NCBI GenBank assembly: GCA_023853785.1
Contig: JAJIRX010000166.1
Location: 22,979 to 86,978 of the forward strand
Reading direction: 5' to 3'
Source: Psilocybe azurescens
Lineage: Eukaryota > Basidiomycota > Agaricomycetes > Agaricales > Agrocybaceae
DNA length: 64,000 nucleotides
A program made the position numbers and the translations under genes. Positions within the stretch are counted from its first letter, which is position 1; each line of letters begins with the position of its first letter. Shown here piece by piece: positions 9,398 through 56,091 of the stretch. Below the pieces are notes generated by a model. The model was not told the origin of the DNA. It did not search any database and saw only the letters and a list, made by a program, of their open reading frames with translations.

Positions 9398-9401
9398 GTA
9401 T

Positions 9402-12880: not shown

Positions 12881-12941
12881 CACGCGGGATGTTTGAAATT
12901 GCCACCGCCGCTTGCAACACAAGCGCCCGCGGTGGTAATAG

Positions 12942-17601: not shown

Positions 17602-17603
17602 GT

Positions 17604-24184: not shown

Positions 24185-24203
24185 CCCTTTCATCTCCCCC
24201 AAC
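24185..24203 (-). other. Element 2 polypurine tract, left
   Basis: Minus strand gttgggggagatgaaaggg lies directly against the LTR start TGTAAACC. It is the classic plus-strand primer and supports the LTR boundary. Confidence 0.75.
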
Positions 24204-26518: not shown

Positions 26519-26759
26519 TTTCTTTTACTGCTTTTCGCCCTTTCTTTCTTGGGATTTTATGTTTTATATGGTAGTATCTCATTTTCTTGCGTACTTTTGA
26601 CTTTTACTACTTAGGATATTTTTAGGGTTTTCTTCCTAGTGTAGTTACTATATCACATAATTTTTTTGTAATAAAACCCTTTTCTTGTTCAGGTGAAGGT
26701 TTCTTTAAGGAATCAGTTACATTAAATCTTTTCTTATTTGATCATGTTATCTTTTCCTT

Positions 26760-27747: not shown

Positions 27748-27938
27748 TTGTCTGTCCTTCTGAAGTCCTTTCAGTTTTTCCCCTTTTTGGTAGAGTACCT
27801 TCCAATAGCAAACTTCTTAGTCTATTATTGGTTTGGTGTTCCCTCTTATTACCCAGTACGAAGTTTTAATGAAGACGTCTTTTCGCCGTCCTGGCGATCG
27901 CTTGTTCGGGCGATCGCCATTACAGGCTTTTAAGACTT

Positions 27939-29750
27939 TTACTCGTCTTCATCTGAGTGTAAAGGAGCATGCTCAAAGGCCATGTCTTTGAAAGGCAAGG
28001 ACTGGTCATCATGGCCGTCTATGATTTTTCTTAGACCTTGCTTAGATATATCAATGAGGTCCCTAACAGAGCCGGGGATCGCTATCTTCTCCCTAGCAAA
28101 GTAAGGTACTACCCTAAAGGCTGCTACCTTGCTCTGCATAACCGCTCCATTCATTTCTGCCACTACATACGAGGCCTCCCCCTAGTCCGCCTTATCACTA
28201 TCATAGGCCCTAGGTATCTTTGCTTTAACTTCTTATTTAAGGAAGATTCAACTCCTGAATTGCGTACTAGTACTAGATCTCCAGGCACAAAATTATAGTC
28301 TTTAATTACTGCCTGATTATCTCGTTCATATCACAATAGGGCTTCATATTTTTGCTTATCTATACGAGTCCGCATCGAGGCTACGTGTAACTGGTGTTTC
28401 GCTAGTGCTTGAGCACGGAAAGCGATTAAGGCTTCATCGGTCATTACCCCAGTAGGAGGTTTGACTAGCCATGTCGCTTCCTTGACGTCTAATGGGAGAA
28501 CAGGGTTCGCCCCAGTGACCATAAAATATGGCGAACATCCCAGCCTCCTTCGTATATTCACACGATCCGCCCACATAATATATGAGAAGAACCAGAACCA
28601 CTTGTGTACATTAGCGGCTCCTAGCATTTTATATATTACCTGGCGAACGTCCCAGTGTGGTCGTTCTACCACACCATTGGCTCGTGAATTATACGGAGAG
28701 ATCTTAATGCTGACGATGCCATACTTCTCAGCCAACCAGTTGGCAGCTGCTACAAACGGTGATCCATTATCTGTTACAAATTCCGCTATACAAGCCCATC
28801 TGCAGATGATATCTTCCCAAATCCATTGTCCTATAGCCCTACCCGTTTCCGAGCGTGAAGGTCGTCCCTCCATCCAAGATGTAAGAGCGTCCCTTCCATG
28901 CACTATATGATGACAATTATTCGATGCAGTGCTCATTACCATACAGTCTGCATGTAAGGTCTGAAATATTGAAGGAGTATGTGTGATAACCGGTTTAATC
29001 CTTATCAGTGTCTTTTGTCGTTCCTGACATAAGTGACAAGTTTTCACAAACCAATTAATATCCTTCTCCATTTCTGGCCACCAGAATCGCTGTACCAGTA
29101 GCTGAGTTGTTGCATAGACTCCTCTATGGCCGACATGGTCATGGGCTGCAGTAAGCATATGCAGTCGTTTGTCTTTGGACACCACTAATCTATGGGTAGC
29201 GCCCGAGTTTCTTAGATATAAGCGCCCTTCAAACATAATGAATCGCCTAACCCATTGTAGAAATTGCATATGATGCTTTTTATCCAAACCCTTCGGTTGG
29301 AAGCTGTGATCCTTATGCCACTGGATCGCCCATTCTAATTGGCGATCCTGCTGTTTTCCTTTTGGCGATCGCTGCTCTTCTGGATAAGGCATTGCCAGAA
29401 TTGCTGTCTCATCAGGTAATGTTAGAGTAGATACTAATTGCTGAACATAGTCCCTTCGTTCAGGACCTAGTTCCTCGCCCCTTAGATTGCAGGTATAGCT
29501 CAAGCTGCTTTTGTTCTATTAGTCTCATTTCGTCCGCTTCCGCCAACTCTATTAAGAAGTTATCAGCAACTCTAGCTATCCTGTCAAACTCTGGTTCTTG
29601 CTCTATCTCTTGCTTAATGTCTAATATATTTAGCAGACCTCTTTCCTTCAGAGGGTTTTGGCTTTTGGTGGACGCTGGCGATCGCTTCGGTAGGGCGATC
29701 CCCCTCACGATCTCCCAGCTCTTCAAGTACAAATCCAGTCCTCTTATCAA
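27939..29750 (-). CDS. Element 2 integrase, left copy
   Basis: HHCC module: HDHVGHRGVYATTQLLVQRF with CHLC. DDE core: Asp in HADCMVM, Asp in FVTDNGSPFV, Glu in GVVERPHWDVRQ following ISPYNSRANG. An in-frame TGA after KQKYEALL (28331) is present in both arms at the same place. Beyond it the sequence continues to encode YNFVPGDLVLVRNS and LKQRYLGPMIVIRR, then, after a frame change, VAAFRVVPYFAREKIAIP and an acidic end HSDEDE at 27939. The lead-in at 29460-29750 (EFDRIARVADNFLIELAEAD) links RNase H and integrase. Confidence 0.87.
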
Positions 29751-29850
29751 TTTCCGATACGAAGTCTTCTACTGGTAAAGGAGGTGGATCGCTAGAGTTG
29801 GCTAATTCTATCACAGGTGGTCCCCAGGGTTCTTCTTCCGAGTACTCTCG

Positions 29851-31665
29851 CTAGGGCGGCTCCGGATCATCAAGCGGCTGGCGAGGTCTTCTTGATAAAC
29901 CATCTGGTCCGAAGGTTTTTCCAGCAACATGTCTGATAGTGAAATGGAAGAGACCTATCTCTTCTATCCATCTATTTATAGTAGCATTAGGCATAACATC
30001 AGGATTCATTAGCATACCCCGATATATTTTGCATCTGTTTCTACCACAAGATTTCTGACACCTATCAGCCAATGGCGATTGGCTTCTAAAGCTCTTTTTA
30101 AGCCGTTGAGTTCCCTCTTAGGTTGAGAGTATCTGGCTTCATGCTCGTGTAGTGTGATAGACCCAAACTTCGCGAAAGTAATGTTTCTTAGGGTTCTTAT
30201 TATCCTCTTGGTAGATATAGTAGCCTACAGCTATGTAGGAAGTATCAATTGCTAATGCAATGCGATCCTCGCTTTCTTAGTCCAAGGGTCTTAAGCATTG
30301 CGCATTCATTACTCCGTCTTTAACTCGCTGCATGCTAGCAATCTGTTCTGGACCCCACTGGAACGGTGTGTTCAGATGGGTTAACTTTTGTAATGGTCGA
30401 GCCCTCTCTGCAAAACCGGGATATACGATCTTAATACCCCAGCAGTTCCTAAGAAGGCGCGAACCTCTGACACATTTTTACAGTCTCCCAGTCCATGATC
30501 ACTTTAACCCGTTCTTCCGTGGGTTTTCGCCCATCCAAACCACACAAGTGTCCCACTACTACTATCTCTTCAGCACATAGCAACGACTTAGTACACGAGA
30601 AGGTCGCTCCTGCGTACTTAATTCGCTGAATTATCAGATTTACATTTTGCAGATGCTCCCACACTAAACGGCGAATCCCTAGATTTTCGGCGATCGTCTC
30701 ATAAGTTCCATACTTATCCTGATATCGAGAGACCGGTCCTCGCACACCTACATCGTCAATGTAAGGAATGGTATACTCAGGCATCTCTTCTCTAAGGATA
30801 TAAGTTACATCATCATGAAAGATGGGTACAGAGTTGGTCCATCCCATAGGCAATGTAGTTAGAGCGCATAGCTCCAAAGGGTGTCTGGAAGGTAGTCATG
30901 TCTCGGGAGCTCTCTTCTAAGGCTCGCTCATCATATCCTACATACAAATCAAACATTCCCCACATGCTCTCCCTGCAAAATGTCCTGCTAAATCCTCTGT
31001 CGCTGGAGGAACCCCCCGAATGTGCTATGGTTACTGCATTAAGAGGCTCCAAACTATGGACTATCCTAAGACTTTTCCCATCTTTCTTTACAACCATAAA
31101 CTACTTCGATCTAAAGGATGAATTCGATGGTTCATAGACTCCCTGACACCTGTTTAGATTTAATAATCCTACAGACTTCATTATAGAGTCCCGGCGGTAT
31201 TGGGATATTCTTACAAACCCAAGGCTTGTGTTATACCGTAGGAATTCTGACAGGCGGAAAGAAGTCTTCTCGAAACTGACCCCTTTCATCATCATTCCAG
31301 GCGAACGCCTCATTTTGTTGCATCATAATATGATGTACTAGTTTTCGCTCTTCAGGCCATAAGAATTCTCCTTTATGAACCTTGTCGAACGCCGCTTGCC
31401 TTTCTGCCGTGTATCGCCCAGTCGGTTCGAAGTCAGGAGGGTGTGGGTTTAGAGGAGGCATATCTTTTAAGGGATCGCCCACAATGTTCCTCACTATCAC
31501 TATCCTGTACTGCTCCGGTAACTCTGTATATACGGGCTTTACTTTTAAGGCTACGGGCTTATATTTCTTACCCAGTAAGACGGTCGCCGCTGGTCCAGCT
31601 TGGTCTTCCCTGGTCGCAGGATCGCTATTTTCAGCAGGCGATCGCCCTAAGTGGTGATCGCTCAC
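29851..31665 (-). CDS. Element 2 reverse transcriptase and RNase H, left copy
   Basis: RT: lead-in LPEQYRIVIVRNIVGDPLKD and FLWPEERKLVHHIM; GVYEPSNSSFRSK; VVKKDGKSLRIVHSLEPLN; MWGMFDLYVGYDERALEES (motif A); TTFQTPFGA (motif B); IPYIDDVGVRGP (motif C, catalytic YIDD near 30755). RNase H: remnants ending TIRHVAGKTFGPDGLSRRP at about 29900. Frame changes occur near 30840, 31110 and 31240, so it is broken. The copy in the right arm is cleaner. Confidence 0.85.
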
Positions 31666-31845
31666 TTTATCACAATTAGATAACTGATGCAGGTACGTTT
31701 CTACTTTTATTTTATCACTAAGTTCTACTTTTTCTTCTCTTATGGCTTGGGATAGAAAGGCATTCCTAACCCCTTCCGAGGTGAAACCTCCGTCGGGTGC
31801 TAGGGAATACCCTCTACTGAGATACTCTGAGTTGCTTCGTCCAGT

Positions 31846-32598
31846 TCAAACACCACCGCTACCTCTCCTTGTTCTGGAACCAAGTCCTCGAGGCTGTCTA
31901 AAAGACTGGGCTTGTTTGACTTTCAAAAGGTCTCCAGGACCCAGACCTCTAGCATAGGTAGGCAATAGTGCCTTTTGCTGGGTGTTGGGGTCTGTGACTA
32001 GTACCGTTGTAGAGCTATCTGATTCGGTAGTAACTACACTAGTAGTTAACTGATTAAATGGTTGTCCCAATAGAACTTTATAAGCAGGAGCTTTGATGAT
32101 ATGTACTTGTAGATATATAGTCACCCCTCCGAAACGGAATGATACATTTTCTGCAAGACCTAGCGTTCGGTCCACAGTTTTATTAGCACTTTGCATGTTT
32201 ATCGTAATAGCAGGATTCCATGTTAGCCCCATCTCAACTGCCGTGGCTTCAGCCATAGACACAATTTGTGAGCCTGAATCTAAAATGGCTTCATCTTGGA
32301 AGACCCCATTGATTTTAGGGAAGATAACCCTAAGATTACCCGATTCCCGGGCCACATAGGGTTCTTTGGGAATAGCACCGTCATTACTCAAAGCAAATTG
32401 AAGATAAGGATCCGACGCCACTTTCCAAGTAGGCTCCATCCGGTCATCAGCTCTTATGTCACTGGCCATTAAGAACGCCGCTACAGGGAGTTCGTCCACA
32501 GTTAAACCCGTTTCTATTTCTTTGGGACCCAAAGGAAACACTTTGAGCAACTGTTTCTGAGTGGGCAATTCCTCGTCCTCAATTTCTTCTAATAACAC
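31846..32598 (-). CDS. Element 2 aspartic protease
   Basis: A 250-codon frame containing the retropepsin signature EAILDSGSQIVSMAEATAVE with the catalytic D-S-G, then GLAENVSFRFGGVTIYLQVH, and the conserved end YKVLLGQPFNQLTT. It processes gag-pol. Compare element 1, which has DDG here. This stretch is intact. Confidence 0.85.
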   Translation of the reverse strand: MLLEEIEDEELPTQKQLLKVFPLGPKEIETGLTVDELPVAAFLMASDIRADDRMEPTWKVASDPYLQFALSNDGAIPKEPYVARESGNLRVIFPKINGVFQDEAILDSGSQIVSMAEATAVEMGLTWNPAITINMQSANKTVDRTLGLAENVSFRFGGVTIYLQVHIIKAPAYKVLLGQPFNQLTTSVVTTESDSSTTVLVTDPNTQQKALLPTYARGLGPGDLLKVKQAQSFRQPRGLGSRTRRGSGGV

Positions 32599-33331
32599 GG
32601 GTGTCCTAACTTTGGTTAAGCTTTTCTTAAGGAAATCTCAGTTAGGCGATCCCCCTATCAGGCCCCCTCAGTGTGACTGACATTGTTAGGTCTAACATTT
32701 CTTTGAAGGCCCTTTCATAGTCTGCTTATGACTCAATAGGCGCTTGAGTTTTATAGGCTGGACCAGGTTTCTCTTTCTCTTTTTCAAATGACTGAATAGG
32801 TACACTAGTACCACTTGGTCGGACTACCGTTGTTAAAGGGGGAACGTCTATATAGGGAAGCTCAGGCGTGCTAACTTTATTAGTACTCTCTGATTCCAAT
32901 ACAGGCATCTCCTTTTCAGGTAACTCCGTGGGTATATTCGCTTTCTTTTTATTTTTAGGTGGGGAAACCCCTTTTCACTGGTAACTGCATCTCTGTCTCT
33001 TCTTCACTTGACTCACTTTCTTCTACTGGTTCCTTAAATTGTACTTCTTTTCTTTTATTTTTCAATTGGTTCTCCGTAGCTTTCGCAGATCTGGTAGTCA
33101 TAATAGGCCGTCGACGATCCACGTCCGCACCCCTTCCCTCGAACTTAATGAAAATTTGATCCTTGTTCCCCATGGTTGAGTTATCCTCATATGATAAGAA
33201 TCGGTCCACCTTGTTGCCATATTTCTTTTTAAGATCACCAAAGACACGGGCGATCTCTGCTTCCTCTGAGTCTTCTGACTGGACTAAACCATCATAAGTC
33301 TCATCGGGATCAGGAAAATATAGATTCTGGA
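32599..33331 (-). CDS. Element 2 gag-protease linker
   Basis: Charged, low-complexity frames (32726-32908 and 32955-33347) with EEAEIARVFGDLKKKYGN and a run of acidic SESSEEETEMQ. This corresponds to the acidic linker of element 1. No domain is seen and the frame is broken near 32930. Confidence 0.55.
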
Positions 33332-34188
33332 CTAGAGTTTTAGCCACAGATACAACTCCAGGTTTCCCTTATTCATATTCTCAATAACTTCTTTCATGGT
33401 TTTCTCATTATCCTGTCTGACCATGAGACCTCCTGGCAGACGGATTTTCCCATTTTCCCTAATGATCCAACCAAAGCTAATGTGTTTTTCAGTGGCAGGA
33501 CATCCCCCCCATCGGTGACCTGGTTCCCTACAGTAGTAGCAGGTATTAGGTCCCACATAGTTTTGCTGACCTGTTGCCCCTGGGCGAGTTTGGTAGTTAC
33601 TGCTGTTTCCAGGAGTTGGCGATCGCTGGTTACTGGCGTTCGCCTGGCTTCGCGCGTTCAATAAGGCTGTGTGTACCTCATTGAACTTCCTATTCACGTT
33701 TTCATTAAATGCCGCTTGGTCTTTAGATTGCTTTAGTAGTAGCTTCATAGAGTCGAGGAGGTTTGCTGTGGCCTCTTCATTCTTAGGTACTACATCCTCA
33801 GGAATCATAGCGTCACGGTCGAGCGATCGCTTGACGGGCTCATCATCAGTTCGCCTAGTAGAACTCTGGGAAGTTCATTCAGCTATTGCCACTGCATTGA
33901 CTGATGACTTCCGGCGTATTTGAAGCGATCTTCTAACCTTACGTTGGGCGTTTGCCCGTCGTCTAATGAATCCGCTCTTAGGTCTAACCTATCTATTAGT
34001 CGGCCTCTGAACGCAGGCGACAGACAGCTCATAAAACGTTCAACCGATTCCCTATTGGATACTAGGGGAGGGTCTTGGGTTATTTTCGCTGCTGCTGCAC
34101 CAAACGCTCTTTTGAAAGATAGTAATTCCTCTAGCTGATCATCTTCAATCAGGTAACGACCACGGTAAGGTTGACATATTTTTGCCAA
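33332..34188 (-). CDS. Element 2 gag, 3' part with CCHC knuckle
   Basis: The capsid end (33883-34188) has RESVERFMSCLSPAFRGRL. After a frame change the nucleocapsid (33332-33808) has CYYCREPGHRWGGC, a CX2CX4HX4C zinc knuckle. Gag is truncated at its N-terminus by the palindrome junction, so no leader or 5' LTR exists for this copy. Confidence 0.8.
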
Positions 34189-34276
34189 CCTAGACAGCGA
34201 TCCCCTTTGTAATGCTGATGCCTCCGGATAACTACTAATGATTTCATCTCGGTATTCCTCCCAAGTGCCTTCTGCG

Positions 34277-36456
34277 ACTCAGAGTATCTCAGTAGAGGGG
34301 TATTCCCTAGCACCCGACGGAGGTTTCACCTCGGAAGGGGTTAGGAATGCCTTTCTATCCCAAGCCATAAGAGAAGAAAAAGTAGAACTTAGTGATAAAA
34401 TAAAAGTAGAAACGTACCTGCATCAGTTATCTAATTGTGATAAAGTGAGCGATCACCACTTAGGGCGATCGCCTGCTGAAAATAGCGATCCTGCGACCAG
34501 GGAAGACCAAGCTGGACCAGCGGCGACCGTCTTACTGGGTAAGAAATATAAGCCCGTAGCCTTAAAAGTAAAGCCCGTATATACAGAGTTACCGGAGCAG
34601 TACAGGATAGTGATAGTGAGGAACATTGTGGGCGATCCCTTAAAAGATATGCCTCCTCTAAACCCACACCCTCCTGACTTCGAACCGACTGGGCGATACA
34701 CGGCAGAAAGGCAAGCGGCGTTCGACAAGGTTCATAAAGGAGAATTCTTATGGCCTGAAGAGCGAAAACTAGTACATCATATTATGATGCAACAAAATGA
34801 GGCGTTCGCCTGGAATGATGATGAAAGGGGTCAGTTTCGAGAAGACTTCTTTCCGCCTGTCAGAATTCCTACGGTATAACACAAGCCTTGGGTTTGTAAG
34901 AATATCCCAATACCGCCGGGACTCTATAATGAAGTCTGTAGGATTATTAAATCTAAACAGGTGTCAGGAGTCTATGAACCATCGAATTCATCCTTTAGAT
35001 CAAGTAGTTTATGGTTGTAAAGAAAGATGGGAAAAGTCTTAGGATAGTCCATAGTTTGGAGCCTCTTAATGCAGTAACCATAGCACATTCGGGGGGTTCC
35101 TCCAGCGACAGAGGATTTAGCAGGACATTTTGCAGGGAGAGCATGTGGGGAATGTTTGATTTGTATGTAGGATATGATGAGCGAGCCTTAGAAGAGAGCT
35201 CCCGAGACATGACTACCTTCCAGACACCCTTTGGAGCTATGCGCCTAACTACATTGCCTATGGGATGGACCAACTCTGTACCCATCTTTCATGATGATGT
35301 AACTTATATCCTTAGAGAAGAGATGCCTGAGTATACCATTCCTTACATTGACGATGTAGGTGTGCGAGGACCGGTCTCTCGATATCAGGATAAGTATGGA
35401 ACTTATGAGACGATCGCCGAAAATCTAGGGATTCGTCGTTTCGTGTGGGAGCATCTGCAAAATGTAAATCTGATAATTCAGCGAATTAAGTACGCAGGAG
35501 CGACCTTCTCGTGTACTAAGTCGTTGCTATGTGCTGAAGAGATAGTAGTAGTGGGACACTTGTGTGGTTTGGATGGGCGAAAACCCACGGAAGAACGGGT
35601 TAAAGTGATCATGGACTGGGGAGACTGTAAAAATGTGTCAGAGGTTCGCGCCTTCTTAGGAACTGCTGGGGTATTAAGATCGTATATCCCCGGTTTTGCA
35701 GAGAGGGCTCGACCATTACAAAAGTTAACCCATCTGAACACACCGTTCCAGTGGGGTCCAGAACAGATTGCTAGCATGCAGCGAGTTAAAGACGGAGTAA
35801 TGAATGCGCAATGCTTAAGACCCTTGGACTAAGAAAGCGAGGATCGCATTGCATTAGCAATTGATACTTCCTACATAGCTGTAGGCTACTATATCTACCA
35901 AGAGGATAATAAGAACCCTAAGAAACATTACTTTCGCGAAGTTTGGGTCTATCACACTACACGAGCATGAAGCCAGATACTCTCAACCTAAGAGGGAACT
36001 CAACGGCTTAAAAAGAGCTTTAGAAGCCAATCGCCATTGGCTGATAGGTGTCAGAAATCTTGTGGTAGAAACAGATGCAAAATATATCGGGGTATGCTAA
36101 TGAATCCTGATGTTATGCCTAATGCTACTATAAATAGATGGATAGAAGAGATAGGTCTCTTCCATTTCACTATCAGACATGTTGCTGGAAAACCTTCGGA
36201 CCAGATGGTTTATCAAGAAGACCCTCGCCAGCCGCTTGATGATCCGGAGCCGCCTAGCGAGAGTACGGAAGAAGAACCCTGGGGACCACCTGTGATAGAA
36301 TTAGCCAACTCTAGCGATCCACCTCCTTTACCAGTAGAAGACTTCGTATCGGAAATTGATAAGAGGACTGGATTTGTACTTGAAGAGCTGGGAGATCGTA
36401 GAGGGGGATCGCCACCGAGCGATCGCCAGCGTCCACCAAAAGCCAAAACCCTCTGA
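34277..36456 (+). CDS. Element 2 reverse transcriptase and RNase H, right copy
   Basis: Near-identical to the left copy. The 273-codon frame 35011-35832 runs from VVKKDGKSLRIVHSLEPLN through motif A, motif B (TTLPMGWTNSVPIFHDDVTY), IPYIDDVGVRGP and DGRKPTEERVKVIMDW to the connection region. RNase H follows in a different frame, with VMPNATINRWIEEIGLFHFT and the HVAGKP end near 36190. The frame is broken at about 34880-35010 and 35832-36037. The protease and gag of this copy are missing because the palindrome junction cuts it just upstream. Confidence 0.86.
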
Positions 36457-36557
36457 AGGAAAGAGGTCTGCTAAATATATTAGACATTAAGCAAGAGATA
36501 GAGCAAGAACCAGAGTTTGACAGGATAGCTAGAGTTGCTGATAACTTCTTAATAGAG

Positions 36558-38160
36558 TTGGCGGAAGCGGACGAAATGAGACTAATAGAACAAAAGCAGC
36601 TTGAGCTATACCTGCAATCTAAGGGCGAGGAACTAGGTCCTGAACGAAGGGACTATGTTCAGCAATTAGTATCTACTCTAACATTACCTGATGAGACAGC
36701 AATTCTGGCAATGCCTTATCCAGAAGAGCAGCGATCGCCAAAAGGAAAACAGCAGGATCGCCAATTAGAATGGGCGATCCAGTGGCATAAGGATCACAGC
36801 TTCCAACCGAAGGGTTTGGATAAAAGCATCATATGCAATTTCTACAATGGGTTAGGCGATTCATTATGTTTGAAGGGCGCTTATATCTAAGAAACTCGGG
36901 CGCTACCCATAGATTAGTGGTGTCCAAAGACAAACGACTGCATATGCTTACTGCAGCCCATGACCATGTCGGCCATAGAGGAGTCTATGCAACAACTCAG
37001 CTACTGGTACAGCGATTCTGGTGGCCAGAAATGGAGAAGGATATTAATTGGTTTGTGAAAACTTGTCACTTATGTCAGGAACGACAAAAGACACTGATAA
37101 GGATTAAACCGGTTATCACACATACTCCTTCAATATTTCAGACCTTACATGCAGACTGTATGGTAATGAGCACTGCATCGAATAATTGTCATCATATAGT
37201 GCATGGAAGGGACGCTCTTACATCTTGGATGGAGGGACGACCTTTACGCTCGGAAACGGGTAGGGCTATAGGACAATGGATTTGGGAAGATATCATCTGC
37301 AGATGGGCTTGTATAGCGGAATTTGTAACAGATAATGGATCACCGTTTGTAGCAGCTGCCAACTGGTTGGCTGAGAAGTATGGCATCGTCAGCATTAAGA
37401 TCTCTCCGTATAATTCACGAGCCAATGGTGTGGTAGAACGACCACACTGGGACGTTCGCCAGGTAATATATAAAATGCTAGGAGCCGCTAATGTACACAA
37501 GTGGTTCTGGTTCTTCTCATATATTATGTGGGCGGATCGTGTGAATATACGAAGGAGGCTGGGATGTTCGCCATATTTTATGGTCACTGGGGCGAACCCT
37601 GTTCTCCCATTAGACGTCAAGGAAGCGACATGGCTAGTCAAACCTCCTACTGGGGTAATGACCGATGAAGCCTTAATCGCTTTCCGTGCTCAAGCACTAG
37701 CGAAACACCAGTTACACGTAGCCTCGATGCGGACTCGTATAGATAAGCAAAAATATGAAGCCCTATTGTGATATGAACGAGATAATCAGGCAGTAATTAA
37801 AGACTATAATTTTGTGCCTGGAGATCTAGTACTAGTACGCAATTCAGGAGTTGAATCTTCCTTAAATAAGAAGTTAAAGCAAAGATACCTAGGGCCTATG
37901 ATAGTGATAAGGCGGACTAGGGAGGCTCGTATGTAGTGGCAGAAATGAATGGAGCGGTTATGCAGAGCAAGGTAGCAGCCTTTAGGGTAGTACCTTACTT
38001 TGCTAGGGAGAAGATAGCGATCCCCGGCTCTGTTAGGGACCTCATTGATATATCTAAGCAAGGTCTAAGAAAAATCATAGACGGCCATGATGACCAGTCC
38101 TTGCCTTTCAAAGACATGGCCTTTGAGCATGCTCCTTTACACTCAGATGAAGACGAGTAA
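36558..38160 (+). CDS. Element 2 integrase, right copy
   Basis: Almost identical to 27939-29750 (one residue differs in the core I compared: GRPLRSETG versus GRPSRSETG). It has the HHCC module, all three DDE residues and the same in-frame TGA after KQKYEALL (ending at 37771). A one-base difference near 37922 shifts the frame before VAAFRVVPYFARE. It ends HSDEDE at 38160. Confidence 0.87.
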
Positions 38161-38349
38161 AAGTCTTAAAAGCCTGTAATGGCGATCGCCCGAACAAGCG
38201 ATCGCCAGGACGGCGAAAGACGTCTTCATTAAAACTCGTACTGGGTAATAAGAGGGAACACCAAACCAATAATAGACTAAGAAGTTTGCTATTGGAAGGT
38301 ACTCTACCAAAAAGGGGAAAAACTGAAAGGACTTCAGAAGGACAGACAA

Positions 38350-41300
38350 TTATTTAGACAGAGCTGAAGTAATCTCGGATAGCTGTTTCATAGCGACTCT
38401 ACGTTCAACTGCCTTGAAAACATATTAGACTCGCAGTCCCGGATACGTGCTTGTAAAAAGAGGATTTGGTGGCGGTTAACTTCGGCATCCTCACTTGCAA
38501 TAAAAGGGGAAGTGCTGGCTGCCTCAAAGAATTGAGAGAGCGCCTCCGGGATGACCTTAGTGGACGGATCTGCGAACCAAGAGTTTAGCGGAGGGGATCG
38601 CCAAAACAAGAAAAGGGCGATCGCTAGATGCTTACCTTCGGTAGACAAAATGTCAAACTTGTCGGTTCTAGCACGTTTGGAACCAGTGGCTGCATAGAGG
38701 GACGCCTTGAGAAAAGAATGTCCTTTAGTATCAACTCCAGGGACTTGATCGTAGTCCAGTATAATCACCTCGGGGCGTTTATCACTAGACTTGTAAGAGC
38801 CCTAGCTTTATTATCATTCATGTCAAGTGACCTAATGAAAAGGAGGACATACCTTGCTGGTATCAGCGGCCGATCGCTTACTACGAGACTTCTTAGTAGT
38901 GGAACTAATGATCTCGACATCATCGCCAACGACCATAGGGGCGGACTGATGCAGAGAATGTTAGGGAATCGCTCGATAGCACAGATAAGCAGCTTACGTC
39001 GGAAAATTCCTCCTGAGGATAGAAAGTAAGCTCAGGGTTGCTACAAGTGGAAGAGACGAACTCCACCTCTCCAGATTTATCAGTAGGGCGAGTCTGGTGA
39101 AGACGATTGCCAATCCTTTGAATCTGAAGGGCGAGTTGGGCTATAGAGAGAAAAAGCGATCGCTGTAACACTCACAACCGGGGTTTCGTCCTCTGCGGCC
39201 TTGGTAGGAGATGCAGCGTTGAGTTGGGCCTCGCGATCGGCATGAATTCCTTTGCAGATCGCCCCAACAATGTGATACTCGGGAGTATAGCGATACAGTT
39301 TGGAATCGAACGAGTGGCAGCTCTGAAGCCCTTTTCGCAAACCGAAAGCGATCTCACAAGGATCCCCAAGTTGATTAATGATAGCAGCATGGTCCTTCCA
39401 GCCCACCTAGTAGAAAGCAAAAACAATCAAATACTAGTACAGGTTTAAGGATGTTAAAATCTCATAAGGAACCGTGCCGCTTCATTCAACAACGGATAAT
39501 TGACAGCTGCGGTTTCAGCAGTAGGATTGCAGTCCTTAGGAGCATGGTGAAGGGCTCGGAACGTAAAATTCGTAGCATACTACAGATGGCACAAGAGATA
39601 TAGCAGTTGCTTCTGAAGTGAGAACAGGCATGATGAAGTGAGGGAGATCGCTTGACAATAGGGCGATCCCTCTTATACTGGAAAAAACCCTCTCGTAGAA
39701 AGATCAATGGGAGCGATCGCTCGACAAGATCTGCAGAAGTAAAAAGACACTGAGCAAGCGCGTGATAGACATTTGCAAATCAGTTCGTATGTAAAACAAG
39801 CCTAAAATGACGCAAGAGATTAAGGATGAAGAAGAACAACTAGATGCAAAGCTTCAAGTAATTGACGGAAATTAAGAGATGACGGAACTAAAATAGAGAA
39901 TACATAATCACTCAAGAGATGGAAATTTCAGGAACTGCACACAGCAGGGACGAGATCCGCAAGAATCGAAAGCAAGCTCAGGAAGCAAGCAAGTAATAGA
40001 ACTGAAAGCAGAGGCTATACAAAAAACAAGCCTAATACGAAGTGATTAGAAAACTGATGCAGCTAATTTCACGAAACTACGGGCGGAAATGGTCCGAATT
40101 TCCTCTATATTTCCAGGATGGAAAGCAACGGAACGGTGACGAAGAGGAGCACTATAACGCTTAAAGATGGCTGAATACTCCAAATGACGGCACTCCAAAG
40201 TCAATAGGAAGTGGCGGATAGGAAAAATGGTTCTCAGAGCGCTGTAGTATTCGGTACCGTCGGTAAAAAGCCCGGATCAGCTGAAAAAGGCTCCATCAGT
40301 TGCTAAACCCATCTAGTAAAAGTGATTAGCGCTTACACGGGATGGGTAAGGATCACTGTTGGGGGGAAACCTTGGCACCGTCGGGTCCGACATGAGAGTG
40401 AAAAACTGATGGAACTGGGCTCCCCAAGCAATGGGTGCTGCGCACACGGAACCAGTGATACGCAGCAGTCTGAAACGCTTGACCGGGAGTATTGCCCAAA
40501 GTGAATGTCACCACGAGGAATTGCCAACTAAGAAATCATGAGTCTAGCCAACATTAACTTCTGATGACTGTTTCTACGCACCAAGAGATGAGTCAGTTGG
40601 ATGAGCTCTGCCAAAGGGGACGACCGGAACTAGGTTGTTCTTTCTGTTTCGGGTAGAACGCCCGCTTGAATTTCTGGTGAGCAGCGTTGAGGTCGTACAA
40701 CAAATTGTGATAAGCAACGGGATCGCTCGTAGGGTTCATAATTTCGGGAACATGGTAAAATAGCGCCTTGATCTCGGGGGCTAGGTCTTCATATTCGTCG
40801 GCGACAGCATAACGAAAATCAAGGTCCTCATAGAAGACCTGGCTGGGGGAATTTGAACAGGCACGTAGAGATTAGGCAAAGGATTAGACATTGGTCTATA
40901 CAAGACAGATAGGCTATCTAAAGCTACTTATGTGTTTAGTCAATCCGGCCAAGACGAGTGTGAGAATCGTGGATCGCTGAGGGAGATCCCCTTCGAGCGA
41001 TCGCCTTGCGGTTGGACTTCCATATCCCATGCGGCTCCAAGCGGCGCCCAATTGGAAACTGGCGAAAAGGTGAACATATTCCTGACGCCCGGGCAGCCAA
41101 TATTGATAGGGCGCCAAGTAGGGAGGAAGTAATTGGTTATTCAGAAATTGTTGATTGCTTTGGATCCACGAGGTATAAAGAGTCTAGACTCTCTAACGCT
41201 CAGTATGGGTTCCTAAGCATTTAGTGAATGAAAAGTTTTACCTGTCGAATAGGCCGACTAATGACGGGACCAATGGCACGGAAACAGGGGACCTCCGGTC

Positions 41301-41808
41301 GGGCGATCAGAACATAGATATGGTCGTGAAGACGTCCGGGTGGTAGACCCACGGGGCCTAGTTGAATCCAGGACTTGGCAAGGTCAACAAAAATTATGCC
41401 TACTTCGTTTTCATATTTGATGTCAGCAATGTCGAACTGTAGCTAAGATGGGGATCAGAAAGTGTTATCATCAGGACAAAAGTCATAGAGTAACGTACGA
41501 GCTGTACAGTGGCTAGAATTAAGGATTGCAGAGGTGGTACGAAACCTAGGACGGGGTCCACTTGGCGCTTCAACGCCCGAATCTGGCATCCATGTTTGAA
41601 AATGCAATACGCATCGAGAAGCTTGCGAAGGCTTGGACGTCGGTCGATGGCAGAAGAGTAGGGGTGCTGGCGATACCTCTGGATAGTACTCTCATCCAAG
41701 TGATAATACTCGCTCAGTGCACGCTGATAGTACGGCGTTGTGTGAGGAATGTGATCAGAGGCGATCCTCTCCTCGGCTAGCGATGGGTGGAACAATAGGT
41801 GGATCCAT
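38350..41808 (-). pseudogene. Cargo 2, right copy: multi-exon unknown protein
   Basis: The fuller copy of cargo 2, at least eight exons, antisense to pol. It starts near MDPP at 41808. Exon blocks: YYQRALSEYYHLDESTIQRY and PSLRKLLDAYCIFKHGCQIR (41510-41730, donor gtacgt); LQFDIADIKYENEVGIIFVD through ARPEVPCFRAIGPVISRPIR (41240-41445, donor gtaaaa); PGVRNMFTFSPVSNWAPLGA near 41040; FYEDLDFRYAVADEYEDLAP and MNPTSDPVAYHNLLYDLNAA (40595-40840); NFTFRALHHAPKDCNPTAET (39520-39590); GWKDHAAIINQLGDPCEIAF with YTPEYHIVGAICKGIHADRE (39180-39405); then the exons shared with the left arm, to 38350. One thymine fewer near 38423 shifts the final exon, and the first exon has a frame conflict near 41785. 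No known domain is recognised. The coherent exon set shows it was a real gene. Confidence 0.65.
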
Positions 41809-42375
41809 GGCTACGGGACAAGACGAACTATGTCGATTCTCCTTTATAGGGGATCGCCCGGGTCAGGTATAACTTATGGAATCCATACGTGGTCGGCCGC
41901 TGTAGTACACATAATTCAATGTGAATGCTTGGCGATCTCTACACAACTAGGGAGTTGTGATCTTTAGTTGGGGGAGAGCGATCACCATATGTAGCGATCA
42001 CTATGTAAAAGCAATCACCACGTGGGTAGAGGACTTAGAAATTCTGTGACTTTGAAATTTTGCGATTCTCTAACAATTTTGAAAGCGACGTAGCAATAAG
42101 CAAAAGCAATAGTAGACAGTACTGAAGCCTCTACAAAGCAAAAGATAACATGGAATAATTGAGAAAAGACTTAATATAACCTGTTTGCTTAAAGGAAGCC
42201 TTCAGCTGACCAAAAGAAAAGGGTTTCATTACAAAAAGAATTATGAAATACAAGTAAGCTACTATAGGAAGAAACCCTGAAAAAGATCCTAAGTAGTACG
42301 CCAAAATGTGCACAAGAGAAGAGTACTGCTATATAAAAACATATAAAGTCCCAAGAAAGAGAGGGTGAAAAGCAG
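41809..42375. other. Intergenic region between cargo 1 and cargo 2
   Basis: AT-rich. Contains gatctttagttgggggaga near 41970, resembling the polypurine tract and adjoining base of the LTR, followed by gcgatcac-type repeats. It may be a remnant of an older LTR edge and should hold the cargo-2 promoter. Confidence 0.4.
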
Positions 42376-44290
42376 TCATTGAGCGAGCCGGGCCTTCTTG
42401 GAGGGGGGGCGATCGTCCTCAGACTCTTCGGCAGATCCTTCAGAAACGGAGTCAGAGGACACCTCCATTACGGCAGGGGAGCCTTCTGGGGCGATCCCCC
42501 GTCCTCGGAAGAACTCTCTCCTCCACTGTCAGATGAGACAGACTCGGTGGAGTCCTCACTGGACTCTTTGCCACTGGGAGCTTCCTCGGCCTCCAAATCG
42601 AGCATGGGATGATCATCAGAGGGTCGAGGGACAGGAGGGACGAAGTTCCCGTCGTCATCCAGATAGCCGGATTCTTGAAGCAGCTGATAAAGCTGCGGGA
42701 ATCGCTTCGAGATGGCGAGGGGAAGGGCTCGAAGGAGTTCGTGCAAATTTCGGAGAGGGAATCGCCCACTTCGAAAGGGTCCTCAAGATCAAAAAGAGAG
42801 AAGGCGATGGCCGCTCGTCGAAGCGCTTCGTCACCATCGAACAAGGGGGCTAAAACGTTGTCGGCGGTGGGGAAGTTGTGGACGATCGCCTGAAGGGTCT
42901 CGGAGAGGCGGAACTCTAAATCAAGCGTGCGAGACTGGAGTCGGGCGGCGTGGTCGATCGCCTCGACCTCAAGGCGACGCGCATCCCGCAAATCCCGACA
43001 TAGCAAGCGTAGGGCTAAAAGAAATCTGTTAAAAAAGCATACCGGGGGTAAAACTGCAAAAGATAAAAACTTACCGTTGCTCGAAAGCTGATCCCATCTG
43101 AGCGTACCGGTTGTACAGACGCATCTGGACAGGTGGGGAGCGCGGAAAGAGCATGATTTTGGTGTTGGCCTCTGGCAAGGTCCACAACGCTCGCCAAGGC
43201 CGCTGAATGTACAGGCCGAAGGTGTGTTTGACAAAACACACTGGGCGCAAATCATCAGAGGCTGGCAAAACACTTAAAGTCAGAAATAATCAGTCAGATA
43301 AAGCAAAAGTGACCTACAACAGACTTGTGATCGCCCTAGATCAGCGAGCTCGTGAGCAGCGATAGGAGGATCGTCTGGACTCGCCGCCCGCAGAACAGGC
43401 TCACCAGGGTTCGCCTCGAGTGCAGCGATCGCCGTCGATTTCTTGCGATCGTATGAGTTGGCGTGGACTCCTCGTTGGCCAGTCGTTGACTTAGCGGCTC
43501 CACGTTTTCGTTTGGCAGGAGGATCAACGGGTGCGGGAGTCATGTCGGGAGAGGGCGATCGCCGAACGCCGCTTGGACCTGCTACGGGGTGGAGGGAAGA
43601 GCGCGGTGGCGACGGTCCTCAGCCTGAGCGAACATCTCCAGTATCTCCATCGGACGGAGAGGTGGGGATGCAGCAACTGGAGAAACGGGAGGAGGGGTAA
43701 GGCGCGAGCTTTACCTTTCCCTTTGACGCGACGAGAGGGCACTGATCTGGTGGGCTGAGGACCAGAGGAGGTAGCGATCGCCTCGACAGTCGGGCTAAGA
43801 GGGACGATTCCCACCGAAGACCGAAGGAAGGCAGCACCGGCCAGACTATGCACGTCCCAAGATACCGTATTCTCCTAAAAAGAAGTAGTCACGGCTGTAA
43901 AATAAAAGTCGCAAAACAAAGTGATAAAAAGACCTACCGTGGTGAACGGGCCGCGAGGAAAAAGGTGTTGGTACATCTCGAAGGTCCGAGACCGTGCCCT
44001 AACAAACAAGAAAATGTGTTGTGAAAGTGTGCGGCGACACTTATCGCGAACTCAGATTCTTCGAAATCTTTGTCCTCATATTGGAGGAGATGGTTGGACT
44101 AATAGAAAAAGTTGAGAAAAGAGAAAACAAATAAAGCGGGAATTGAACTACTCACCAAATGAGCTTGCATTTCACCGAGTACGACGGCGGCTTCCTCATG
44201 CGTCAGTCGATCCTCAGCGAACGGAGCTTTGTGGGCGAGTTCCCAGGCTTGTTGCAGATGGTGAAGGATTTCTTGCGAAGAAGGGGGCAT
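42376..44290 (-). CDS. Cargo 1, right copy: C6 cysteine-cluster protein
   Basis: The best-preserved cargo gene, antisense to pol and starting about 450 bp inside the LTR. Exon 1 is MPPSSQEILHHLQQAWELAH plus EDRLTHEEAAVVLGEMQAHL with a GTGAGT donor at about 44156. Later exons include NSYDRKKSTAIAALEANPGE and PVLRAASPDDPPIAAHELAD (43330-43480). The key exon (43120-43240) has MICAQCVLSNTPSACTF and ERCGPCQRP, forming CX2CX8CX8CX2CX7C, probably zinc-binding. A helical segment LRDARRLEVEAIDHAARLQS follows, then LQESGYLDDDGNFVPPVPRP, a Ser/Glu-rich acidic region and a basic KKARLAQ-type end before the stop at 42376. A nuclear, DNA- or chromatin-binding role is inference only. One or two frame changes (near 42750 and 42390) may be introns or mutations. 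Confidence 0.65.
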
Positions 44291-44724
44291 GATATTGGAA
44301 AAGTAGCAAAAGAGGGGTGTAGGTGTGCCGCTAGCCAGTAAATCGCCCCAGCTTTTATGTGAAAAAAATGTGTACGGCAGCGACGATCGAGAAGCGCCCC
44401 GAAAGACTAAAAGTTAAATTGACGCCCAAAGAAACCCGCTAATGAGACGGTGATCTCCGTGCCTAATTATAGGCATGGCTATTAATAAACATCACGGCGA
44501 TCACGGATATCTGAAGGGGATCGCGGGACGAGATATCTCAGCAAGGGGCGATCGCTGCCTAACGTTGAGGGTATCCTCCCACTGGAACATAGTGAACTCC
44601 TGATAGGAATACACTGAACTTGTAATAACCGTACTTGGCAAAAATCAGAGGGAGTGCATCTTTGGACAAACCCAAAGTAATAGTGAAACCAAGTGAGCGA
44701 TCGACTGAGGACAGTCATCTTTTA

Positions 44725-44743
44725 GTTGGGGGAGATGAAAGGG
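44725..44743 (+). other. Element 2 polypurine tract, right
   Basis: gttgggggagatgaaaggg immediately precedes the TGTAAACC start of the LTR, identical to the left arm. Confidence 0.75.
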
Positions 44744-45769
44744 TGTAAACCATTCTGAGCTTACAATTCATAGTGAGATACAGAGGCCCTTATTTTTGCG
44801 ATTGCGGTCCATTTCCTTCCTTTCTCTTAGTCTCTTTCAATTATCACAAGCCAAAGTATCTATTTAGTCTATAAAAACAGCCCTGTATCTTAGAATAGGA
44901 ACCAAGTAATCTACACCCCTGATTTGATATCAGAATTTACTCTGAATAAGAATTCTAGTGTTAACACTTGAAGACTAGTGATTTGTGTGATAAGAGATCG
45001 AACACTGCAGTTCACCTTAAGCAATTAGGCGCTACCTGGCTTCGTGAGCGATCGCCATTGTGATATTCAACGTCAGGTCTATTAGACTTAATAAGCAGGC
45101 TTTTATAAGTCATCCGTGGACTGCCCTGGGGATTGTTAAGTACGGGTTGGAACCCTATACGGCTAGCGATTGCTCATAGTAACTAGGGACGACTGTCAGA
45201 GAACTCCGACTGTTCAGGACGTTGCCTATAGTAAGACTGCCCTGGGGATTATTAAGTACGGGTGGGAACCCTATAAAGGCTAGTGATCGCTCATAGTAAC
45301 TAGGGACGACTGTCAGAGAAATCCGACTGTTTCAGGACGTTGCCTATAGTAAACTAAGGACTATGGACTAGTGTACCCAGTTGCTTATAGGAACTAAGGA
45401 TCTACTACGTGTTAATACGGGTGATCGCTTATAGTGTTTGATAGTTGGAGTTTGGGTTTTATAAAGAGAACTGTTAAGTGTCCCGTGTACACTCGCCCCC
45501 AAAAGCGATCCCCTTGATATTGGTGATCGCCCTCACATAGAGAGATCGCCCTTACTATTCCAGTGCCTTGTGTGTACTCGTCTGTAAAAGAGTTCCCTAG
45601 CTACTAGTGATCACCTCAGAGCGATCGTCTAAGTCTGTACTCTGCTAAAAACTAGTTATTGTAATAAGCCTTACAAGCTTACCCTCCCAGATGGAACTGA
45701 TCAATATAAATATTTGATTGGGCGTTGTGTATTGGGCAATTACAAAGACACCCCGCACTAAACATCTCA
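44744..45769 (+). repeat. Element 2 LTR, right
   Basis: 1026 bp, TG...CA, about 96-97% identical to the left LTR. It contains the same internal duplication. It is followed not by host sequence but by a primer-binding site. Confidence 0.85.
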
Positions 45770-45771
45770 TC

Positions 45772-46013
45772 TGGAGCCCACCGCAAGGGAGGGTTAATAC
45801 TAGATAAAGCAAAACCAGCTTGACATTGAGAAAAATTGCGATAAGCATTCGGCACCAAATACACGAGCGATCGTCTAAGTCTGTACTCTGCTAAACTAGT
45901 TATTGTAATAAGCCTTACGAGCTTACCCTCCCAGATGGAACTGATCAATATAAATATTTGATTGGGTGTTGTGTATTGGGCAATTACAAAGACACCCCGC
46001 ACTAAACATCTCA
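45772..46013 (+). repeat. Primer-binding site, leader and partial second LTR
   Basis: Two bases after the LTR comes tggagcccaccgcaagg (45772-45788), then about 76 bp of leader, then 149 bp (45865-46013) repeating the last 151 bp of the LTR (45619-45769). The right LTR is therefore also the 5' LTR of a further, internally deleted tandem copy whose 3' LTR end remains. Confidence 0.8.
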
Positions 46014-46885: not shown

Positions 46886-48039
46886 TATCACTAGGCAAAA
46901 ACGCGAAACGGTGAAGGCAAACTGATTATTAAAAGACCATGTCATGGTAGTCCAACGGATTATCAAATCGACGGTTTAACCGATATCAATGTGGATATTG
47001 ACGTTGGAATATCAGTAGGGGAAAAAGGGAAACGGTGAAGCCAAGTTGTCTTTAAAAGACCATGTAGTGAAAGTCCGACATAATGGCTGACCATCAAACC
47101 GAAGATCAAACCGATATGAATGTTGATGTTGAATTTGGTATATCGGTTGGCAAAAACGTGAAATGGTGAAGCCTAGTTGACAATTAAAAGGCACTGTCGG
47201 TAAAAGTCTGGCGGACTATATCTGTAGGTAAAAATGCGAAACTGCAAAGCCAAAGTGATAATTAAACGACTATTTCGTGAAAGCCTAACAGACTATCAAA
47301 TTGACGTTGGAATATGAGTAGAGGCAAAGGGAAATGGTGAAGCCAAGTTGTCTTTTAAAGACCATGTAGTGATAGTCCAACATAATGGCTGACCATCAAA
47401 CTGACAATCAAACCGATATGAATGTTGAGGTTGACTTTGATATATCGGTAGGCAAAAACACGAAACCGTGAACCCCAGTTGACAATTAAATGGCGCTGTC
47501 GTAAATATCTGACTGACTATATCGGTAGGCAAAAATGCGAAACAGTGAAGCCAAATTGATAATTAAAAGACCATGTAGTGAAAGCCCAACTGACTATCAA
47601 ATCAACTGTTGATCCAATCTCAATGTTGATGTTGACTTTGGTATATCGGTAGGCAAAAACGCGAAACGAACCCCAGTTGACAATTAAAAGGCACTGTCGT
47701 CAAAGTCTGGCGGACTATATTGGTAGGTAATTACGCAAAACACTGAAGCCCAGTTGACAATTAAAAGGCCCAGTCGTAAAAAGTCTGACGGACTATATCG
47801 GTAGGCAAAAACGAAACGTTGAAACCAAACTGATAATTAAAAGACCATGTGGTGAAATTCCAACAGACTATCAAATAAATGGTTGAACCTATATCAATGT
47901 TGATGTTGACATTGGTATATCGGTAGGCAAAAACGCGAAACAGTGAAGGCCAGTTGAGAATTAAAAGTTCCTGTTGTAAAAGTCCAACAGTCTATATTGA
48001 TAGGCAAAAACACGAAACGGTGAAGCCAAATTGATAATT
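46886..48039. repeat. Minisatellite array, left part
   Basis: Degenerate tandem units sharing the core ggtaggcaaaaacgcgaaac and ggtgaagcc..gttgacaattaaaag. Two unit classes alternate: a long one (about 120-145 bp, containing gaccatgtagtgaaagtcc and a gttgatgttgac run) and a short one (about 75 bp, with ctgtcgtaaaagtctgacgg). Open frames across it are by-products of the repeat. Confidence 0.85.
48027..48039 (+). repeat. Target-site duplication of the LINE, left copy
   Basis: caaattgataatt here is repeated at 54527-54539. Together they bound the LINE and lie within satellite units. Confidence 0.85.
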
Positions 48040-48548
48040 TTTTTTTTTTTTTTTCGTGTCAATTTATGTCTTTTGAGGCATAGCCCCACGCAGACCTAAC
48101 TAGTACGGTTGTAGATAACGGGGCACTGCGCCCTGCTCCTTGCCCATGGATCCTTTTAAGGCCGCTGAGGTACGCCCTGTGGGTGCCCACTACGATCCCC
48201 TCCCCAGTCGGCCCAGCACGGAAACGCTGTTTGCTGGCATCCATTTCTTGATGGGTGGGTTAACTCGACCGAGTTTATTCCCTTTCATTGTCGGCCTCTT
48301 GTTGTTCTTTTTCCGCTGGGGCGCTCCTACGTACTGGTACGTTGGGGCGCGGTTAGGTATATGCTCATGTTTAGGTTGGTGAGGACGGATGTGGTTTCCG
48401 GGGCCCTTTGAGTGGTGGGCTTGGTGTGTTCGTATTGAGTGAGTGGGTGGGGTATGTGTGTGTGTTCTCTGTTTTATCTATAGTGGGGGTTTTGCTCAGT
48501 CTGCTTACCGTGATGGATGGCTGGTACTTCACCTGATGTGGTTTTTAG

Positions 48549-54402: not shown

Positions 54403-54526
54403 CATTTGTTAATTATGGGGTATGTACACTATCCAATGCCTATTACTAGTCGTCCGAGGCTCTTGTTTACCCAGCAAGAAGCGTGGGAATACTTGAGATG
54501 GATGTGGTAATGGATTGAGAAGCGGT

Positions 54527-56091
54527 CAAATTGATAATTAAAAGACCATGTCGTGAAAGTCCAATGGACTATCAAATTGACGGTTTAACTGATATCAATG
54601 TTGATATTGACGTTGGAATATCGGTGGGGAAAAATAGGAAACGGTGAAGCCAAATTGTCTTTAAAAGACCATGCAGTGAAAGTCCAACATAATGGCTGAC
54701 CATCAAACCGACTATCAAACCGATATGAATGTTGATGTTGACTTTGGTATATCGGTAGGCAAAAAAGCGAAACAGTGAAGCCCAGTTTACAATTAAAAGG
54801 CCCAGTCGTAAAAGTCTGACGGACTATATCAGTAGACAAAAATGTGAAACGGTGAAGCCAAATTGATAATTAAAAGACCATGTCATGAAAGTCCAATGGA
54901 CTATCTAATCGACGGTTGAACCATTCCCAATGTTGATGTTGACGTTGGTATAGTGGTAGGCAAATAAGCTAAACGGTGAACCCCAGTTGATGATTAAAAG
55001 GCACTGTTGTAAAAGTCTGACGGACTATATCAGTAGGCAAAAATGCGAAACGGTGAAGCCAAACTGATAATTGAAAGCCCATGTCGTGAAAGTTCTACGG
55101 ACTATCAAATCGACGGTTGAATTGATATCAATGTGGATATTGACATTGGAATATCGGTAGGGCAACAAAGGAAATGGTGAAGCCAAGTTGTCTTTGAAAG
55201 ACCATGTAGTGAAAGTTCAACATAATGGCTGACCATCAAACCGACGATCAAACCAATATGAATGTTGATGTTGACTTTGGTATATCGGTAGGCAAAAAGT
55301 GAAATGGTTAAGCTTAGTTGACAATTAAAAGGCCCTGTCTTAAAAGTGTGACGGACTATATTGGTAGGCAAAAATGCGAAACGGTGAAGGCTAGTTTACA
55401 ATTAAAAGGCCCTGTCGTAAAAGTCTGATAGACTATATTGGTAGGCAAAAACGCCGAAACGTTGGAAACCAAACTGGTAATTAAAAGACCATGTCGTGAA
55501 ATTCCAACGGACTATCAAATCAACGGTTGAACCAATCTCAATGTCGATGTTGACGTTGGTATATCGGTAGGGAAAAAAAGGTAATGGCGAACCCGTTGTC
55601 TTTAAAAGACCATGTAGTGAAAGTCTGACATAATGACTGACCATCAGACCGACCATCAAACCAATATGAACATTGATGTTGATGTTGGTATAGCAGTAGG
55701 CAAAAAGCGAAACGTTGAAGCCAAGTTGATAATTAAAAGACTATGTTGTGAAAGTCTGACGGACTGAAGGGCCATTGAACCAATGATTAAGCCAATAAGA
55801 ATGTTGATGTTGATGTTGGTATATCGGTAGGCAAAAACGAAATGGTGAACCCCAGTTTACAATTAAAAGGCCCCATTGTAAAAGTCTGACAGACTATATC
55901 TGTAGGTAAAAACGCGAAACGGTAAGCCAAAGTGATAATTAAAAGACCATTTTGTGGAAGTCTAATGGACTATCAAATTGACGTTTGAACTGATATCAAT
56001 ATTGAAATTGACGTTGGAATATTGGTAGGGGCAAAAGGAAATGGTGAAGGAAAGTTTTGCCTTTAAAGGACCATGTAGTGACAGTCCAACA
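54527..56091. repeat. Minisatellite array, right part
   Basis: Continuation of 46886-48039 after the LINE. The first 13 bp are the second target-duplication copy. The same two unit classes occur, ending at gacagtccaacatgcactg. Confidence 0.85.

Follow-up and report, generated by a model that had tools for sequence, protein, structure and literature searches.

Accessory genes that run antisense to gag and pol are a known yet unexplained feature of long terminal repeat (LTR) retrotransposons, and a 64,000-nucleotide stretch of the Psilocybe azurescens genome (contig JAJIRX010000166.1, positions 22,979 to 86,978; hereafter the window, or C161:22979-86978) raises the question of what several predicted spliced genes are doing in an element that passes through RNA. 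The initial annotation placed two such genes, of 1.9 kb and 3.5 kb, between pol and the 3' LTR of a copy called element 2, reading inward from the LTR and converging on pol. This arrangement is borne out by predicted GT-AG introns and by a frame-specific excess of synonymous substitutions, but the count of two is not: the 1.9-kb gene stands as gene A (44290-42376), whereas the 3.5-kb gene splits into genes B, C and D, for a total of three or four. A single gene across the 3.5-kb part (41808-38350) was set aside on account of internal stops, ATGs and TATA boxes. The genes, in window coordinates, are the following:

42376-44290, minus strand: gene A, five exons and four introns
40940-41808, minus strand: gene B, three predicted exons, with introns at about 41498-41443 and about 41241-41184
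40046-40891, minus strand: either a separate gene C or the 3' portion of a joint B-C transcript, with at least two predicted introns, one at about 40581-40528
38350-39631, minus strand: gene D, about six predicted exons

A recently transposed family with an antisense gene block

The stretch from pol to the 3' LTR belongs to a family of about 17 kb whose paired LTRs, primer-binding site, polypurine tract, target duplications and domain order are those of a Ty3/gypsy LTR element. The genome searched comprises 70.4 Mb in 937 contigs (labelled C followed by a number), and genome-wide searches scored the best candidates only, so that all counts of loci are lower bounds. A search with the region found nine further copies 92-98% identical over the right-hand 4.3 kb, C580 at 87%, and more diverged loci besides. 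Seven copies (C440, C644, C681, C159, C465, C602 and C603) have an LTR at both ends and are 16.4-19.4 kb long, five of them measuring 17.1-17.3 kb and the remaining two 16.4 and 19.4 kb. The LTR of full copies, about 1.92 kb except in C440, where the 3' LTR is shortened by an internal deletion, starts with TGAAAGGG, ends with CATCTCA (the TG...CA type) and is directly preceded by a polypurine tract; in family copies TCTGGAGCCCACCGC directly follows the 5' LTR, at the position of a primer-binding site. Exact 4-base target duplications (GCGT, CCGC, CCGT and CCGT) were found in four of the seven LTR-paired copies, the two CCGT duplications being one site present in two contigs; among the other three, one duplication is lost at a contig end and two copies have no exact match. 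The domains follow the gypsy order of protease, reverse transcriptase (RT) and integrase, with PF13975 and PF17921 above the Pfam cut-off and PF00078 and PF00665 (RT and integrase core) below the curated cut-offs.

The LTR pairs of six copies diverge by 0.1, 0.2, 0.4, 0.8, 0.9 and 1.6% (the C440 pair is not comparable because of the internal deletion), and the youngest pair, that of C644, differs by 2 mismatches and 9 gap columns over 1922 aligned bases. Such near-identical pairs indicate that the intron-bearing genes went through recent transposition, and sequence comparison thus shows a block of three or four antisense genes, predicted introns included, within recently transposed copies. C602 and C603 have identical flanks on both sides; the assembly therefore seems to contain both haplotypes in places.

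The proposal of the initial annotation that the block is a property of the family agrees with its regular presence across copies, between pol and the 3' LTR. The same annotation named the occurrence of these genes mostly outside LTR elements as evidence to the contrary. Searched genome-wide, gene A is present at at least 17 loci (two each on C161, C440 and C886, and one each on C580, C194, C465, C202, C682, C644, C602, C159, C681, C603 and C286), all 17 of which adjoin pol or LTR sequence of the family. At 16 of them the same contig carries family pol downstream of gene A and in opposite orientation, although only as remnants of 66-209 bases at both C886 loci and at C286. At C202, gene A lies between LTR pieces with no pol within the 8 kb inspected, and gag-pol and genes B-D are absent; this locus is a deletion derivative, and its gene A allele matches the uninterrupted protein P0001 described below. 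Matches to genes B, C and D lie in family copies, those to B additionally at both C886 loci; weak matches to B (E 0.07) adjoin diverged pol at C440, and the only matches elsewhere are on C460 (E 0.32) and C477 (E 0.19). Among the best candidates scored in this genome, no copy of A-D was found outside element sequence.

Gene A, a predicted spliced gene under constraint

The four introns of gene A (44155-44099, 43937-43875, 43317-43262 and 43074-43015) have GT and AG at their ends in 13/13, 15/15, 15/15 and 15/15 copies with anchored flanking exons, intron 1 being unanchored in two of the 15 copies and acceptors being judged by eye. These 15 copies span five lineages, and in most comparisons between the lineages synonymous sites are at or near saturation. 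Among ten type A copies (the allele of element 2), 31 of the 38 substitutions shared by at least two copies in exons 1-2 are synonymous, against 12.5 expected (0 of 5000 simulations were as high), as are 19 of 43 in the rest of the gene, against 12.1 expected (P=0.012). The excess vanishes in both wrong frames, for exons 1-2, for the rest of gene A and for genes B, C and D pooled. A few shared changes may be non-independent because C602 and C603 are probably one insertion.

A protein search among the 8000 candidates sharing most words identified four predicted proteins of P. cyanescens (P0001-P0004) as homologs of gene A. Three of the four are uninterrupted at 525-563 residues, as gene predictions only, and their exon joints match those of gene A, with some alternative joints in P0002 and P0003; P0003 is in a different frame across the cysteine motif described below. 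Gene A at locus C202 equals P0001 in two shift-free aligned stretches (45/45 and 39/39 residues), and the other P. cyanescens proteins are about 84-95% identical to their nearest loci in the better pieces; by these matches alone, the genome would probably be that of P. cyanescens or of a close relative. P0004 looks by eye like a type A gene with many Arg-to-Cys/His/Gln replacements. Such replacements are expected when methylated CpG deaminates, and the pattern suggests C-to-T decay of methylated copies. On these comparisons we judge gene A to be a real spliced gene; it is under purifying selection. An extra intron considered in exon 2 was dropped after comparison with other copies and P0001.

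All 11 readable copies, and three further lineages besides, have a CATAAAAG box about 70-95 bases upstream of the gene A ATG. The predicted protein has basic stretches (KRKRG and KKARL), an acidic, serine-rich C-terminus, and a six-cysteine motif, C-x2-C-x8-C-x8-C-x2-C-x7-C, at 43249-43151. All six cysteines are readable in four of the five lineages, in two of them piecewise across frame shifts; at C202, the locus shows five of them and the corresponding protein P0001 all six. The fungal Zn2Cys6 family (PF00172) has C-x2-C-x6-C as the first half of its motif, and gene A departs from that pattern with C-x2-C-x8-C. None of the products of genes A-D matched Pfam above a curated cut-off, and a PDB profile search gave no match better than E 0.18.

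Genes B, C and D

Genes B and C are separated by 48 bases and may form one transcript. A TATAAA sequence 40 bases upstream of the gene B ATG and a TATAAG sequence about 47-50 bases upstream of the gene D ATG are present in 11 of 11 copies; no TATA box was found for gene C. Across 11 copies, the synonymous fraction of shared changes is 10/28 in B (P=0.15), 7/13 in C (P=0.044) and 8/22 in D (P=0.34), and the pooled count of 25/63 exceeds the 17.5 expected (P=0.022). At the better C886 locus, gene B has 67-72% protein identity and a ratio of nonsynonymous to synonymous divergence (dN/dS) of 0.29 over 108 codons. The large protein database was searched with A and B, and for B not one of the 312 candidates reached E<=0.01. 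B, C and D are probably real genes as well, but the case for them is less certain than that for A.

The stop-free stretches of the 12 listed copies are broken by small indels, and no copy with every exon in frame was found, the copies not having been tested exhaustively one by one. The two substitutions against nine gap columns in the C644 LTRs, together with the uninterrupted P. cyanescens predictions, suggest that many of the indels are noise from the assembly and not signs of decay, although decay of copies also seems to occur.

Mosaic history of gene A

The main family carries two strongly diverged alleles of gene A: type A, in element 2, and type B, in C580 and in a second, inverted partial copy within the window (arm 1). 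Between element 2 and C580, synonymous divergence (dS) runs from 0.9 to saturation across the four parts of gene A, compared with 0.013 in B, 0.003 in C and 0.009 in D; a second count that reads through indels puts B-D at 0.04-0.08. DNA identity between the same two copies drops from 95-97% in the flank on the LTR side to 55-75% within gene A; the A-B spacer stands at 79-87%, and B and C are again at 95-100%. Within the window, the type B gene A of arm 1 is 53-76% identical to its counterpart in arm 2 (element 2), and the LTR-side flank is 97-98% identical. A smaller block lies within type A: from about 44440 to 43860, which covers the upstream region and exons 1-2, element 2 and C465 differ by a dS of 0.9 and a dN of 0.03, and the dS of the remainder of the gene is about 0.03-0.1. 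Type B is close to C886b in exons 1-2, where 86% of residues over 49 codons are identical, and not in the later exons (60-62%), so the two parts of the gene have apparently reassorted.

Three further lineages, C202, C886b and C440b, each have their own allele. Element 2 and C440b differ by a dS of 0.55 in integrase and of 1.7 to saturation in gene A. No comparably diverged block was found in the LTR, leader and gag (the first 5.2 kb in 250-base windows, C644 against four copies), where the minimum identity is 92%. Across the copies compared, strong divergence stays within gene A and its borders, and such a block recurs; the stretch upstream of gene A and the A-B spacer vary with the allele. 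Between diverged lineages the dN/dS of gene A is 0.04-0.4 in most comparisons.

The divergence of the alleles against the similarity of the elements implies that the genealogies of gene A reach back further than those of its host elements. These comparisons show that recombination has carried gene A from one element lineage to another, both as whole alleles and as separate exon 1-2 and exon 3-5 parts, a history that was not part of the initial annotation. Recombination, whether by template switching or by gene conversion, is the simplest cause of the mosaics; at the level of reads, the allele blocks could still be assembly chimeras. Selection may possibly have favoured diversity among the alleles.

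What the antisense genes may do

The reading preferred here, to which a probability of about 0.5 is assigned, is that the gene A product regulates the element from within the nucleus and that the gene is exchanged between lineages by recombination, in a manner comparable to the copy-number control of Ty1. The introns would persist because they are opposite in strand to the genomic RNA; an antisense layout would in this way let an element retain introns despite its passage through RNA. Each gene or gene group would be transcribed from its own core promoter, with TATA boxes before A, B and D. The gene A product would bind DNA through a zinc-cluster-like motif and control the expression or the copy number of the element, and recombination would swap the gene A carried by an otherwise successful element. 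We propose that elements could, by such a swap, escape or share regulation by resident copies. Control of this kind would resemble the subfamily-specific self-restriction of Ty1, without homology. Ty1 copy-number control is self-encoded, and subfamilies differ in the control-bearing gene through recombination (PMC7055915); the Ty1 factor derives from gag, and control by gene A is an inference.

Several observations weigh against the regulatory reading. Gene A had no Pfam match to the fungal Zn2Cys6 family, and structure prediction from three homologs gave a useless model (mean pLDDT 38.7). The LTRs are about 95-99% alike across carriers of different alleles; no matching change of a binding site in the LTR is therefore seen, and this invariance speaks against simple cis-recognition. 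The synonymous excess is not significant for B alone or D alone, and dN/dS exceeds 1 in some close pairs with small counts: 2.1 for gene D between element 2 and C440 (14 against 2 changes), and, between element 2 and C580, 1.8 for gene D and 3.2 for gene C. Integrase is more constrained (0.15, element 2 against C465).

It is possible, though clearly less probable, that the antisense genes are real but serve the spread of the element, through nuclear import, choice of integration site or packaging, and that the deep alleles are leftovers of recombination without selection for diversity. Template switching produces mosaics anyway. The alleles come without an accompanying LTR change, and gene A is constrained, not accelerated, in most comparisons; what this account leaves less well explained is that the diverged block is limited to gene A and its borders and recurs, as type B in C580 and arm 1 and as exons 1-2 among type A copies.

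A bolder form of the regulatory reading, which we regard as doubtful, would have gene A set the specificity in a system of retrotransposon "immunity groups", in which the DNA-binding regulator of each deep allele restrains elements of the same allele and an element breaks out by acquiring a new allele through recombination. If this were true, ancient alleles would stay in circulation within very young elements. Ancient, differing versions of gene A in near-identical elements amount to a natural experiment, which makes the function of these genes testable through comparison of alleles and raises the possibility that group-specific self-control evolves in retrotransposons.

It is improbable that A-D are host genes captured by transduction and now carried as passengers, despite their host-like introns and TATA boxes: no copy was found outside element sequence in this genome, gene A is under purifying selection, and the protein searches, made for A and B, returned only the four P. 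cyanescens proteins for A (8000 candidates) and none for B (312 candidates). Equally hard to favour is the view that antisense RNA, rather than protein, matters, convergent transcription giving double-stranded RNA that silences the element; the idea has been proposed for plant antisense open reading frames (ORFs) (PMC7264820), and A-D do converge on pol, but they do not overlap the listed pol ORFs, and the coding constraint and splice-site conservation of gene A point to a protein. That the frames are spurious, on the complement of a non-coding spacer, is the least probable account of all, for although small indels interrupt the listed copies and the tests of B and D alone and the ratios above 1 give it some footing, it is refuted for gene A by the evidence above, and many of the indels, judged by the C644 LTRs, look like assembly noise.

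Comparison with known systems

Plant Ty3/gypsy elements with additional antisense ORFs between pol and the 3' LTR (the aORF-3R type) include Grande (gene23), RIRE2, Retand (TRP28) and PvRetro13 (PMC7264820, PMC11963269); the gene23 protein is nuclear (PMC7264820) and TRP28 is predicted to bind DNA (PMC11963269). They resemble the family described here in the position and orientation of the genes, in their presence in most copies, and in encoding proteins of unknown function, some of them nuclear or DNA-binding (shown or predicted). In the available text no introns are reported and no allele swapping is described for the plant elements (PMC7264820, PMC11963269), whereas here three or four genes without a Pfam match have about a dozen predicted introns. 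The Retand TRP28 domain (PF04195) had no match in A-D. Bdelloid rotifer LTR elements have an additional ORF3, with separate transcription units and spliced messages (PMC5408684); additional ORFs as spliced units are the likeness, splicing being predicted here, and the domains of the rotifer ORFs (env, DEDDy, GDSL and others) are the difference (PMC5408684). Boty/BcGypsy1 of Botrytis cinerea has an antisense gene, brtn (Zhao et al. 2011, cited in PMC8365987; also mentioned in PMC7264820). It is likewise a fungal gypsy element with an additional antisense gene, but an ascomycete one with apparently a single such gene.

The HBZ transcript of HTLV-1 is spliced. HBZ is an antisense retroelement gene read from the 3' LTR side that encodes a nuclear regulator (PMC11963269), and the likeness is one of layout only: HBZ is a bZIP protein whose transcript starts in the 3' LTR, whereas gene A has a TATA-like box between the LTR and the ATG. 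No bZIP domain was matched by Pfam in A-D. Antisense genes between pol and the 3' LTR are thus already known from plants and Botrytis. No description of an intron-rich antisense block of several genes, or of swapping of deep alleles within one, was found among the matches listed in the open literature, which tentatively suggests that the block and its mosaicism are undescribed.

The copies in the window and other features

Although the initial annotation treated element 2 as an element, the copy is not whole. Two partial elements meet in a fold-back at about 34278, arm 1 on the minus strand (about 23158-34278) and arm 2, which is element 2, on the plus strand (about 34278-45769). Neither is complete: element 2 begins inside pol at about 34.3 kb, lacks gag and the 5' LTR, and has a deleted right LTR. 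The pol blocks found in both arms are 97-100% identical, and the fold-back at 23158-45769 could be a true rearrangement or an effect of assembly. The annotation's homologous versions in both arms exist for gene A and for the greater part of gene D; B, C and the beginning of D are gone from arm 1, the junction lying at about 26766-26772. The remaining features of the two arms are the following:

34278-38160, plus strand: truncated pol of element 2, with the RT ORF at 35011-35832 and the integrase ORF at 36833-37771; ends approximate
39806-40022, no strand: insertion between C and D, about 217 bases without a counterpart in the other aligned copies, with a flanking duplication of about 12-14 bases
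44722-44735, plus strand: polypurine tract just 5' of the 3' LTR; the same or nearly the same tract precedes the listed 3' LTRs of other copies
44736-45769, plus strand: right LTR of element 2 (TGAAAGGG...CATCTCA), internally deleted and about 0.9 kb shorter than the full 1.92-kb LTR
23158-24192, minus strand: 3' LTR of arm 1
24631-26501, plus strand: gene A of arm 1 (type B allele), antisense to arm 1 pol
27900-34278, minus strand: gag-pol of arm 1, with the aspartic protease ORF at 31846-32598, RT and integrase ORFs, and gag-side ORFs at 33332-34278; ends approximate

On this alignment, the sequence between C and D is a later small insertion. The right LTR of element 2 is followed by primer-binding-site sequence and then by a second LTR end at 45866-46013.

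A second gypsy-type element is present in the window, with LTR blocks at 9401-10164 and 17603-18367 and pol on the minus strand; the integrase ORF is at 12275-13039 and the protease ORF at 15374-15889. Just inside its 3' LTR lies an antisense frame (about 10234-11200, plus strand) with frame shifts, which has 49-79% protein identity to sequences in at least seven other contigs (C413, C16, C247, C444, C21, C168 and C812); the C413 match covers residues 1-254 of the 260-residue query without a stop. Accessory genes in antisense orientation may be frequent in this fungus. Farther along the window are two clusters of one repeat family with units of about 100-300 bases, at 46886-48072 and 54495-56141, approximately 7 kb apart.

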